A DNA stretch of 64,000 nt. Origin: Flavobacterium bizetiae (GTDB taxonomy: Bacteria; Bacteroidota; Bacteroidia; Flavobacteriales; Flavobacteriaceae). Positions within the stretch are counted from its first letter, which is position 1, and each line of letters starts with the position of its first letter. The stretch spans positions 1 through 64,000 of the forward strand of contig NZ_CADCSU010000103.1 in NCBI RefSeq assembly GCF_902804475.1, given 5' to 3'. Positions 2,646 to 36,556 of the stretch are shown piece after piece. The position numbers and the translations under genes were made by a program. The notes under the pieces are model-generated. The model did no database searches. It was not told the origin of the DNA and saw only the letters and a program-made list of their open reading frames with translations.

Positions 2646-3413
2646 ATGAGCGAATTAGTATCTATTATAATCCCAACATATAATACTGAAAAGTTCATTG
2701 GATTGACTTTGCAATCAGTTCAAAATCAAAGTTATCAAAACTGGGAAGCAATCTTAGTTGATGACGCATCTATAGATAAAACAGTAGAAATTATAAAAGA
2801 TTTTGCTGAAAAAGATAATCGGATAAAACTCTTTCAACTAGCTAAAAACTCTGGAAATGGAGTTGCACGAAATATTGCTTTAGAAAAAGCAATCGGAAAA
2901 TATATTGCTTATTTAGATGCTGATGATTTGTGGTTTCCGTCTAAATTAGAAAAACAGATTCAGTTTTTAAAAGAGAATAATTTACCATTTACATTTAGTT
3001 TTTATGATTGTATTGATGAAGAAGGAAACAATTTAAACAGACGAGTTGAAGCACCGTTAAACCTAAGTTACAATCAATTGTTTTTTTGCAATTATGTTGG
3101 CAATTTAACCGCGATCTATGATTCTGATTACTTAGGGAAAATTATAATTGAAGCCACGCAAAAGCGACAAGATTGGAGATTGTGGCTTAGTATTGTAAAA
3201 CAAATCGAAGAAACAAAACCAGTTCCGGAATCTTTGGCGTTTTACAGAATAAGAAAAGATTCCATTTCGTCTTCAAAATTTAAATTGATAAAACACAATT
3301 TTGGTGTTTACAAAAATTTTCACGGATTTAATTTTGTGTTTTCTGTTTTATTAATGATCCGATTTTTATTCACTCAATTGATTATTAAGCCAAAATATAT
3401 AAAGAAAGGATAG
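2646..3413 (+). CDS. Glycosyltransferase family 2
   Basis: This 255-residue GT-A fold enzyme opens with VSIIIPTYNTEKFI. It has the nucleotide-binding acidic pair in VDDASIDKT and the metal-binding DAD motif at residues 91-93 (YLDADDLW). QDWRLWL later in the chain matches the acceptor-side ED/W region of teichuronic acid- or EpsE-like GT2 enzymes. A C-terminal hydrophobic stretch (about residues 225-245) could anchor it to the membrane. It is the last gene of the polysaccharide run, 33 bp after the UDP-xylose synthase gene, and is followed by a field of palindromes that may end transcription. Confidence 0.85.
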   Translation: MSELVSIIIPTYNTEKFIGLTLQSVQNQSYQNWEAILVDDASIDKTVEIIKDFAEKDNRIKLFQLAKNSGNGVARNIALEKAIGKYIAYLDADDLWFPSKLEKQIQFLKENNLPFTFSFYDCIDEEGNNLNRRVEAPLNLSYNQLFFCNYVGNLTAIYDSDYLGKIIIEATQKRQDWRLWLSIVKQIEETKPVPESLAFYRIRKDSISSSKFKLIKHNFGVYKNFHGFNFVFSVLLMIRFLFTQLIIKPKYIKKG

Positions 3414-3415
3414 TA

Positions 3416-3738
3416 TTCTTCAAGGTCGCAATTTGTGACCTTGAAGAAATCGGTTTCCATTTTAAATCTTGAAGTCGCAATTTGCGACTTCAAGATTAGA
3501 ATATTCATCAAAATTGGAGGTCACAATTTGTGACTTCCAATTATTAAATTCTGTTCAGAGAAGTTTAAACAACCATTCTTTAAGATCACAAAATGTTATC
3601 TTAAAGAATGGTTGCCAAAATTGGAGGTCGCAATTTGCGTCCTCCAATCTTCAAATCCTATTTTGGTAAGGTCAAACCTAAAAACTTGAGGTCACAAAAT
3701 TGTGAGATCAAGTTTTCAAGGTCACAACTTGTGACCTT
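3416..3738. repeat. Seven clustered palindromes, core TCRCAA-n-TTGYGA
   Basis: The 335-bp gap between the GT2 gene and the ORF6N gene is almost filled by seven inverted repeats: 3416-3448, 3465-3497, 3512-3542, 3571-3613, 3620-3648, 3681-3716 and 3718-3738. The first three, the fifth and the last are centred on a single base between TCRCAA and TTGYGA; 3571-3613 and 3681-3716 have a looser centre. Arms are 10-17 bp: 3465-3497 is perfect, 3571-3613 has perfect 16-bp outer arms, and the others have one or two mismatches. Outer arm sequences differ between copies while the core is kept. Spacing is irregular. An eighth copy lies inside the adjacent ORF6N gene at 4048-4078. They could be operators, transcription-ending hairpins or a mobile palindromic element. 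Confidence 0.85.
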
Positions 3739-3748
3739 AGAGAATGTA

Positions 3749-4276
3749 TTATTTTTTATAACCAATTTTTACTCTTTCATTTTCATCTTCTTTCTTTTCA
3801 GTCAATTCATCTAAATAAGAAAAAACCAATTCAATATTCTTATCGTGATTCTCTAACTTCTTTTGAATCTGAAGAATATTAACCTTAATTTCTGTCGTAT
3901 CCAAAAGCATTTGTCTCACCTTTGTGAAAATACGCATGATTTGAATATTAGTTTGAATTGCTTTATCGCTTTTTAGAATGCTTGATAACATAAGAACACC
4001 GTGTTCAGTGAATGCCGCTGGTATATGGCGTAAACCCATTTTTTCAGAATTGGAGATCACAATTTGTGATTTCCAATTTTCAAATTCTGATTTATTAAGT
4101 TCAAACATAAAGTCTTCAGGAAATCTAGAAATGTTTCTTTTGACAGCTTGTTTTAAAATTCGTGTTTCAACACCATAAAGTAAAGCCAAATCACGATCAA
4201 GCATTACTTTTTGACCGCGAATAAAATATATTTTGTTAGAAATTGTTTCTTCAGAAAGTAAAGATTGATCCTCCAT
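3749..4276 (-). CDS. ORF6N-domain DNA-binding protein
   Basis: This 175-residue protein has an N-terminal ORF6N domain, the KilA-N-associated DNA-binding module common in phage antirepressors and Bacteroidota. It is recognised from residues ~15-60 (IRGQKVMLDRDLALLYGV, then RNISRFPEDFMFEL). The domain continues through AFTEHGVLMLSSIL near residues 87-100. The C-terminal third is predicted coiled coil (VNILQIQKKLENHDKNIE), suggesting a dimer or oligomer. Residues ~67-76 (WKSQIVISNS) are encoded by a palindrome of the same family as the seven downstream of the gene. A TAnnTTTG element 20 bp before the ATG supports the start. Its target is unknown; binding to the palindromes is a guess. Confidence 0.85.
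   Translation of the reverse strand: MEDQSLLSEETISNKIYFIRGQKVMLDRDLALLYGVETRILKQAVKRNISRFPEDFMFELNKSEFENWKSQIVISNSEKMGLRHIPAAFTEHGVLMLSSILKSDKAIQTNIQIMRIFTKVRQMLLDTTEIKVNILQIQKKLENHDKNIELVFSYLDELTEKKEDENERVKIGYKK
4048..4078. repeat. Palindrome inside the ORF6N gene, same family as 3416-3738
   Basis: This is a 31-bp inverted repeat with 15-bp arms around one central base and one G-T mismatch (4055/4071). It differs from the intergenic copy at 3512-3542 at two positions that pair with each other, so the change keeps the palindrome. It lies in frame in the ORF6N gene and encodes the segment around WKSQIVIS. Confidence 0.85.
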
Positions 4277-4295
4277 AGGTTTTAATTAAAAAAAC

Positions 4296-4303
4296 AAATG
4301 TAA
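4296..4303 (-). promoter_or_regulatory. Bacteroidota -7 element for the ORF6N gene
   Basis: On the minus strand this reads TACATTTG, a match to TAnnTTTG, ending 19 bp before the ATG at 4276. No clear -33 TTG is seen, so it is a moderate call. Confidence 0.45.
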
Positions 4304-11922: not shown

Positions 11923-12116
11923 TCTTTGTCAAAGTGTTAAACTTTGACAAAGATTGTCTACTATTTTTTGTCATTCCGTGGAACGACGGATCTCAGTAAA
12001 AAACTTCGCAATCAAAATCGCCAATCTTTGTAGAGCTACTTGTGGAGTTCCCTCGTTCCTCGGGATGACAATAATAGTGGTTATTTTGTGTGAAATATTT
12101 TTAAGCTTTGACAAAG
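11923..12116. repeat. Intergenic repeat block with two palindrome families
   Basis: The 374-bp gap 11877-12250 contains three recognisable parts. A palindrome (11923-11952) has arms TCTTTGTCAAAGT and ACTTTGACAAAGA, and is also found at 36526-36556. Then comes a 104-bp inverted repeat with 27-bp imperfect arms (11968-11994 with 12045-12071) of the TGTCATTCCG/CGGGATGACA type that is dispersed in many Bacteroidota genomes. A half copy of the first palindrome lies near 12104-12116. No coding sequence is seen. Confidence 0.7.
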
Positions 12117-36525: not shown

Positions 36526-36556
36526 TCTTTGTCAAAGTTTAAAACTTTGACAAAGA
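36526..36556. repeat. Palindrome TTTGTCAAAGTTT/AAACTTTGACAAA, second copy
   Basis: Perfect 15-bp arms surround one central base. The same palindrome with a slightly different centre is at 11923-11952, and a half copy is near 12104-12116. Both full copies lie between genes downstream of stop codons. Confidence 0.8.

Follow-up and report, generated by a model that had tools for sequence, protein, structure and literature searches.

A palindromic DNA element conserved within the coding sequence of ORF6N genes in Flavobacterium bizetiae, other bacteria and phages

Introduction

Rickettsia palindromic elements are dispersed over unrelated genes, and REP sequences, conserved palindromes that stand in arrays near genes and are associated with RAYT transposases, are likewise dispersed. 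A different relation between gene and site is provided by the intragenic operators: the Roi protein of phage HK022 reportedly binds a site within its own gene, as Clerget and Boccard are said to have found in 1996, and it thereby resembles the arrangement proposed below for ORF6N, in which a DNA-binding regulator has a site in its own coding sequence. We know of no family-wide, frame-independent coding site. In the accessible part of PMC6649704, Rickettsia elements are described as transposable palindromic elements in coding sequence, and the mitochondria of Nematomorpha are reported to hold many long coding palindromic repeats in which palindromy is kept together with protein coding. PARCELs, according to the accessible part of PMC2996958, are amphipathic tandem repeats of 25 residues in ORFs without an assigned function, many of them membrane-targeted, and their coding DNA shows dyad symmetry, a wide horizontal spread and some link to mobile elements.

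The palindrome described here, found at an ORF6N gene of Flavobacterium bizetiae, shares features with each of these systems. Like the Rickettsia elements it is palindromic DNA that occurs in and out of reading frames, but it appears to belong to one gene family and one position and shows no dispersal. Going by the same accessible text on PARCELs, it has in common with them the coding dyad symmetry, the wide horizontal spread and some mobile-element link, but it is a lone palindrome within a DNA-binding domain and has further copies beyond the gene; tandem 25-residue amphipathic repeats of the PARCEL type were absent, the window gene, which encodes an ORF6N domain protein, and most others seen having one segment. 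The Nematomorpha palindromes, as far as the accessible text describes them, also combine palindromy with coding, while the ORF6N palindrome keeps to a constant position within a single gene family of bacteria and phages. Judged from these partial sources, it lacks a defining feature of PARCELs and one of the Rickettsia elements, and it departs from the Nematomorpha palindromes in host organism, in number and in length. The ORF6N arrays resemble REP sequences in being conserved palindromes arrayed near genes, and no linked REP-associated tyrosine transposase was found at the ORF6N locus: the three Y1_Tnp genes of the genome lie on contigs C68, C23 and C97 rather than on the ORF6N contig (C103), and the exact core of the palindrome is absent from those three contigs. 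HK022 Roi, whose description (Clerget and Boccard 1996, J Bacteriol 178:4077) is cited in the accessible part of PMC3430580, differs in being a Rha-like protein (the Rha match falling below its cut-off) with a KilAC domain. It was rejected as an ORF6N homologue since it is not ORF6N by Pfam, and the HK022 roi gene contains no palindrome above chance. Among the annotations of ORF6N phage genes, one reads roi and many read antirepressor. A search of the literature on ORF6N, covering titles and the starts of abstracts, with most subscription papers outside its coverage, returned no account of such a palindrome.

The ORF6N locus of Flavobacterium bizetiae

The window, by which we mean the whole 64 kb stretch of F. 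bizetiae DNA analysed, contains an ORF6N gene whose product matches the PF10543 (ORF6N) profile with an E-value of 2.8e-34 (117.7 bits; cut-off: 27.8), and a genome-wide search (5.83 Mb; 250 contigs; 99.95% complete) yielded this one match. The features of the locus, taken from the ORF list, Pfam and the genome search, are as follows.

2646..3413, plus strand: glycosyltransferase family 2 gene, convergent with the ORF6N gene and bounding the array
3414..3748, no strand: the array as a whole, occupying all the sequence from the ORF6N gene to the glycosyltransferase gene convergent with it; elsewhere in the genome no further copy was found
3416..3448, no strand: array copy with S-type arms (TTCTTCAAGG), 15/16 pairs
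3465..3497, no strand: array copy with L-type arms (ATCTTGAAG), 16/16 pairs
3512..3542, no strand: array copy with W-type arms (AATTGGAGG), 14/15 pairs
3570..3614, no strand: array copy, a long S-type palindrome with degenerate core, 20/22 pairs
3617..3651, no strand: W-type array copy with degenerate core, 15/17 pairs
3681..3716, no strand: L-type array copy with a two-base centre (3692), 15/18 pairs
3718..3738, no strand: S-type array copy adjoining the ORF6N stop, 10/10 pairs
3749..4276, minus strand: ORF6N gene, 175 aa, the sole PF10543 gene found in the genome
4042..4084, minus strand: in-gene palindrome of W type, 18/21 arm pairs, inside the codons of SEFENWKSQIVISNSEKM
4295..4302, minus strand: TACATTTG, a promoter-like element 26 bases before the ATG

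The first-pass annotation had placed seven core-bearing palindromes beyond the ORF6N stop and an eighth in frame within the gene. The eighth is present at 4042-4084, and 3414-3748, the interval that separates the ORF6N stop from the glycosyltransferase gene, does contain seven, but these share the strict core only in part: the exact core TCRCAANTTGYGA, with its one-base centre, is found in four of the seven (3426, 3475, 3521 and 3722) and in the gene copy (4057), while the centre at 3692 has two bases and the cores of 3570-3614 and 3617-3651 are degenerate. The strongest array copies are those at 3570-3614 (20/22 arm pairs) and 3465-3497 (16/16). In the sense of the gene, the array copies encode SRSQIATLK, LKSQIATS, WKSQIVTSN, WRTQIATSN, LISQ and SLRSQVVTLK, with a stop within 3570-3614. 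The peptides previously quoted as gene-sense (KSQFATS, RSQNVIL and RSQFASS) are those of the plus strand, opposite the gene (ORF 3469-3669); the general point that the copies encode similar peptides nevertheless stands, because palindromes give similar peptides on both strands. The element TACATTTG at 4295..4302, which we take to resemble the -7 promoter element of the Bacteroidota, has no overlapping palindrome in the window species.

At the cut-off used, the real 64 kb window contains 11 palindromes, against 0 in three first-order Markov simulations. Three of the 11 belong to this locus and eight, several of them terminator-like, lie elsewhere; therefore palindrome strength alone is not unique to the ORF6N locus, and it is the shared core and the clustering that are unique. 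Two near-identical strong palindromes (TCTTTGTCAAAG...CTTTGACAAAGA) can also be observed away from the ORF6N locus, at 36526-36556 and 11923-11953.

Association of the palindrome with ORF6N genes

The exact 13-base core occurs at five places in the 5.8 Mb genome, all five at the ORF6N locus, while its reversed control gave 0. The 17-mer GGTCRCAANTTGYGACC was found at 18 places in the genome when up to three mismatches were allowed, compared with 26 for its control, and the places with 0-2 mismatches were all in the array. Furthermore, BLAST of the array against its own genome gave no match outside the locus below an E-value of 0.03. The earlier suggestion of a Rickettsia-like palindromic element is thus borne out as regards residence within a reading frame, indeed in two frames (see below), but not as regards dispersal.

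In 199 genomes of the genus, the 17-mer is present in 76 of the 120 with an ORF6N gene and in 0 of the 79 without one (Fisher: 8e-24), as would be expected of an autoregulatory operator, whose sites should accompany the regulator gene and be lacking where it is lacking. The 13-mer is less specific and is present in 158/199 genomes. Of 111 genus loci, 110 contain an ORF6N reading frame, and the copies are placed in the gene, just before its start or just after its stop; two weak matches were located at about -2 kb from ORF6N. Of the 27 loci that have copies downstream, 25 have the start of the first core 10-21 bases past the stop codon. Palindrome density, measured across 158 loci, is highest close to the gene, at 1.56 per kb within 200 bp upstream of the start and 2.44 per kb within 200 bp downstream of the stop; at greater distances it falls to 0.03-0.28. 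Among the genus 17-mer matches listed, all are at an ORF6N gene or remnant except one (G056:C4:75615), which has no ORF6N within 2 kb. The search of the core across this and other Flavobacterium genomes, as called for in the first-pass annotation, therefore ties the copies to ORF6N genes rather than spreading them evenly, and the link it had drawn between ORF6N and palindromes is strongly supported by the five of five exact cores, by the 76/120 against 0/79 genomes and by flanking copies that occur almost only within a few hundred bases of the gene.

The viral contigs give a less specific picture. Among the 192 17-mer stretches listed, nine are in an ORF6N gene, two within 400 bp of one and one farther away, some of the stretches being short, so that ORF6N links can be missed, and the C-core figures referring to the matches listed. 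The viral scan was rejected as an independent test of specificity, with 11 of the 192 stretches listed in or within 400 bp of an ORF6N gene and exclusivity to ORF6N not shown. The remaining stretches look like chance matches and hairpins between genes, and the occurrence of the 17-mer in unrelated viral ORFs is at least partly due to chance. Intergenic hairpins with the same 17-base core, several with T runs and with no ORF6N nearby, were seen in L313, L320, L324, L368 and other phage stretches, and the core sequence may also serve in terminator-like hairpins of phages. A viral ORF without a Pfam match that is not ORF6N (L380, 404-1051) carries a perfect EPVANCDRF palindrome. The copy before the Bro-N gene of L338, a palindrome followed by a T run, was set aside as probably a terminator.

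The palindrome within the ORF6N coding sequence

A near-perfect palindrome of about 27-31 bp, about 31 bp in the genus and mostly centred on AA-n-TT, lies at the same place in the ORF6N genes of many phyla and phages, and the position homologous to 4042..4084 is palindromic in most other ORF6N genes examined. Counted by alignment column, the genus averages 13.96 arm pairs of 15 (109 genes; 102 with at least 12), the rest of the phylum 12.85 (40 genes) and viral genes 12.88 (8 genes), compared with means of 6.4-6.9 of 15 when codons are redrawn for the same protein and of 4.07 at other positions of the same ORF6N genes, where 16 of 85,452 reach at least 12. From a further analysis, of 90 loci, which took the best palindrome before the FTE anchor, six loci without that anchor were dropped.

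A uniform second analysis took the best palindrome in the search interval before the FTE anchor and gave the redraws the same search. At least 12 of 15 pairs are scored by 236 of the 283 genes, against about 8.8 when synonymous codons are redrawn, and 237/283 genes lie above all 60 synonymous redraws, each allowed its own best position (genus: 101/108; phylum: 33/40; viral: 37/46; named or plasmid: 66/89), the counts not being fully independent, as L215/L541, L217/L534, L218/L545, L219/L546 and L220/L544, for example, are each one contig fetched twice, and L232/L233 are near copies. In this analysis 11 genes had no anchor and three loci (L087, L566 and L567) had no 80-aa ORF, the palindrome being present in some of these 14 and absent from others.

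Palindrome-bearing genes occur in Bacteroidota, Pseudomonadota, Campylobacterota, Spirochaetota, Bacillota, Fibrobacterota, Planctomycetota, Omnitrophota and others, as well as in viral contigs, with the proviso that many named loci are metagenome-assembled and single phylum labels may be wrong. Weak members that are not above the null include those of Haliovirga (Fusobacteriota; 10/15) and Legionella oakridgensis (9). Phage-type ORF6N/ORF6C antirepressor genes (L501, L578, L579, L580, L584 and others) show a weaker palindrome (10-11/15) at the matching place, which is clearly the top palindrome of the gene in L578, L580 and L501/L461, is tied in L579 and L584 and is not the top one in L576, L581 and L583; this gives a hint only that the phage-type genes share the palindrome site. 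Tandem palindromes in frame within one ORF6N loop are found in L509, L512 and L514, and those of L509 (ELVTNCDRFKNLRSQIVTSS) represent two families in two frames.

Some of these loci have further features. L222, L224 and L230 encode ORF6N proteins of about 300 aa with a C-terminal region that contains an HDRF stretch and resembles a phospholipase D-type domain; Pfam did not find such a domain in L509. On a Treponema plasmid (L225) the ORF6N gene adjoins genes for a DNA methyltransferase and a restriction subunit S, and on a Bacteroides plasmid (L231) it lies beside Fic and DUF3990 genes.

Conservation of the palindrome as DNA

The coding element is conserved as DNA and not as peptide: both arms change together, and the amino acids and even the reading frame follow. 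Among the 264 genes scoring at least 11, the palindrome is read in frame 0 in 218, giving RSQ[IF][VA]T or RSK[IF][SL]T (e.g. RSQIVT), and in frame 1 in 46, giving EVV[AT]NCDHL, ELV[AT]NCDRF, EVITNCDNL or VENFD (e.g. VTNCD). The identical 27-mer GAGGTGGTCGCAAATTGCGACCACCTC encodes EVVANCDHL in L271 and RWSQIATTS in the viral L563. In 151 unique coding 27-mers, pairs 2-6 and 10-12 are matched in 92-97%, and at several of the pair positions three or four kinds of base pair occur (pair 10: GC 106, AT 24, CG 14; pair 11: TA 85, GC 39, AT 12, CG 4). Residues on one side of the palindrome covary with codons on the other, and amino acid changes compensate across the arms, SQ.VT being exchanged with SK.LT and VANCD with VENFD.

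On a tree built from the rest of the gene, pair 10 shows 21 changes on each side, with 98/98 rows consistent and agreement in six of six independent pairs (p 0.03), this being the one pair with enough independent pairs to reach 0.05 on a weakly resolved tree. Pair 4 (83/84 rows; 4/4 in nearly all pairings), pair 11 (87/87; 3/3) and pair 13 (90/95) are similarly consistent, while pair 7 (83/98 rows, mostly with no difference opposite) and pair 8 (82/87; about two for and one against) are mixed.

Within the genus, paired positions match in 95.0% of cases in coding copies (1139/1199), compared with 89.7% in downstream copies (730/814; p 9e-6) and 85.3% in upstream copies (272/319; p 3e-8), the flanking sites having been picked by core and palindromy, a bias that favours flanking copies if anything. 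This points to selection on the coding copy, because a neutral process alone would not favour the copy under coding constraint. Template switching can make paired arm changes in one step, and hairpins maintained in this way share with the ORF6N palindrome a mutational route to such changes; on the accessible part of PMC8794818, this explains the upkeep of the arms, but not the restriction to one site or the greater perfection of the coding copy.

Flanking copies and arm types

It is the copy in the coding sequence that is widespread, occurring across phyla and phages, and the flanking copies elaborate on it in a minority of genes. By the cut-off used, some flanking copies are present at 68 of the 283 genes and none at 215. 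Of 110 genus loci, 18 have upstream copies, located at about -30 to -160, while downstream arrays often follow the order S-L-W-S-L, contain up to seven copies and reach the next gene. Each of the arm types S, L and W is found in genes as well as in arrays, and the chimeric arms within arrays suggest recombination between neighbouring copies.

Flanking copies mostly agree with the copy in their own gene at the third pair. Where the third pair of the gene is C:G, 101 flanking copies have C:G, 0 have A:T and 10 are other or mismatched, and where it is A:T, six have A:T and 0 have C:G (one contig being counted twice). Arms identical or near-identical to those of the own gene occur in upstream copies of L221, L547, L536, L548 and Butyrivibrio, but overall only 21 of 118 flanking copies match the copy of their own gene in at least 24 of 27 bases. 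TCRCAA is kept in the flanks of L062, L091, L124, L212, L529 and L539 despite other coding cores.

Possible roles of the palindrome

The explanation that we favour, at a confidence a little short of even, is that the palindrome would serve the ORF6N protein as a DNA target in cis, placed within the very gene that encodes it, and that the flanking copies would be extra sites for self-regulation. Recognition by ORF6N and self-regulation are plausible steps that we infer from sequence comparisons. The protein would recognise the palindrome, probably as a dimer through its C-terminal helix, either as duplex or as an extruded hairpin or cruciform, and once bound it would regulate its own gene: copies upstream may block the promoter, the coding copy may block elongation or form a loop, and downstream copies may add sites. 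Being part of the gene, such a target would accompany it from one phage, plasmid or chromosome to another. The perfection of the arms may owe something to repair of the hairpin by template switching. ORF6N genes appear to exchange blocks of about 90 bp that include the palindrome, and recombination may also occur between the array and the copy in the gene. Several observations count against a target: the three arm types in one array are unexplained by a single binding specificity, arms of about 15 bp a side are long for an ordinary operator, few flanking copies closely match the copy of their own gene, several genes with other coding cores keep TCRCAA in their flanks, most genes have no flanking copy, no palindrome overlaps the promoter-like element in the window species, the 17-mers of viral contigs are not exclusive to ORF6N, pairs 7 and 8 are mixed and the fold matches are weak.

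The AlphaFold model of the window protein (mean pLDDT 84.9) comprises a compact domain and a long C-terminal helix. Foldseek found nothing at an E-value of 0.001 or below for this model, and its best match (E 0.31) is not a DNA-binding protein; the more plausible of the weak fold matches are the Dachshund/Ski and RacA DNA-binding domains, the model bearing a weak resemblance to winged-helix DNA-binding folds. A sequence search found no relative with a solved structure.

A rather doubtful alternative is a selfish palindromic element specialised in ORF6N genes, tolerated in an exposed loop and in short flanks and multiplied locally with no benefit to the gene. Such an element would account for a palindrome that lies inside reading frames, in two frames, for the in-frame tandem copies in one loop of L509, L512 and L514 and for the chimeric arms in arrays, and residues 71-80 of the window model, which include part of the palindrome-encoded stretch and lie between a helix and a strand, ahead of the long C-terminal helix, form a loop of low confidence (mean pLDDT 62). 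In the model of a frame-1 member, however, the same segment is confident (87) and partly helical. Dispersed copies were, moreover, not found in the F. bizetiae genome, most ORF6N genes over many phyla carry the element (236/283), and the coding copy in the genus is more perfect than the free copies, suggesting need rather than tolerance.

It is less probable still, and unlikely on the whole, that the palindrome is primarily a recombination site that aids exchange of the loop-encoding block of about 90 bp, with the arrays as a partial store of donors and the loop diversified as a result. Exchange itself appears to have left several traces. Outside the block, which extends from FEL to AFTE, the window gene and its close relatives are very similar, whereas inside it they diverge strongly. 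When the block or arm types W, L and S are mapped onto a tree of the remaining gene sequence, 31 changes are needed (minimum: 2; mean after shuffling: 42.8), with 3-8 per arm type forced even if only well-supported branches count; this tree, however, has 134 columns and many open forks. The genes of G053 and G042 appear to have been shortened by joining to an array copy, and by BLAST about eight array matches contain 47-69 bases of coding-like sequence 5′ of the centre (75-88% identity), in seven arrays (L145, L132, L092, L107, L121, L102 and the window, which has two). In the window, the stretch 3508-3585, around the copy at 3512..3542, matches its own ORF6N gene at 77% over -58..+19 of the palindrome centre, and for the stretch 3616-3682, around the copy at 3617..3651, the match is to the W-type gene (L127) of a different genome in the genus, at 88% over 67 bp. 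Against this, the mean identity of 101 flanking copies to coding blocks in an ungapped test is at background beyond +-16 bp; most would be poor donors, which makes the array less than a complete donor store, and a general origin of array copies as coding-derived cassettes was rejected and kept for the about eight matches. Gene conversion, furthermore, does not need palindromy.

We consider it improbable that the element acts as an RNA hairpin in the leader, coding part or 3′ end of the ORF6N transcript that controls translation, decay or termination. One transcript could hold all copies, the stems are long and the innermost AAnTT could form a loop, and the frame-1 set alone leans to G.T among its residual mismatches (22, against 10 A.C). 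Over all sets, however, there are 74 G.T and 98 A.C mismatches, with no preference for G-U, which weakens the RNA reading rather than excluding it, because template switching can make paired changes in one step and hide the intermediates. No terminator-like site, that is a hairpin followed by a T run, was found on the array, and an Rfam search gave no credible match. Constraint on the protein alone, by which a conserved motif happens to be encodable as a palindrome, is scarcely credible, for although synonymous redraws retain about 6-7 of 15 pairs, so that the peptide contributes something, the observed means are 12-14/15, two frames are used and amino acids change in compensation (SQ.VT with SK.LT, VANCD with VENFD).

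Implications for the ORF6N family

Returning to the palindrome as a target of ORF6N within its own gene, we see an evenly balanced case for a broader reading of the sequence comparisons: part of the ORF6N protein sequence may simply result from the need to preserve a DNA palindrome, and a self-addressed gene may carry the DNA structure on which its product acts through the phages, plasmids and chromosomes of many phyla. If binding alone explains the palindrome, its novelty would shrink to that of a variant of intragenic operators. To our knowledge, no DNA target has been described for ORF6N, a common phage and bacterial domain, and confirmation would give this domain a specific site of predicted binding across hundreds of genomes. 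It would also provide a natural case in which to study how hairpins survive in coding sequence, and a control module that is complete in itself and accompanies its gene as it moves. ORF6N would then be a widespread family whose protein sequence is partly dictated by a DNA element in the gene, a reversal of the direction in which constraint normally runs, and its conserved RSQ.VTS stretch would have to be reread as DNA.
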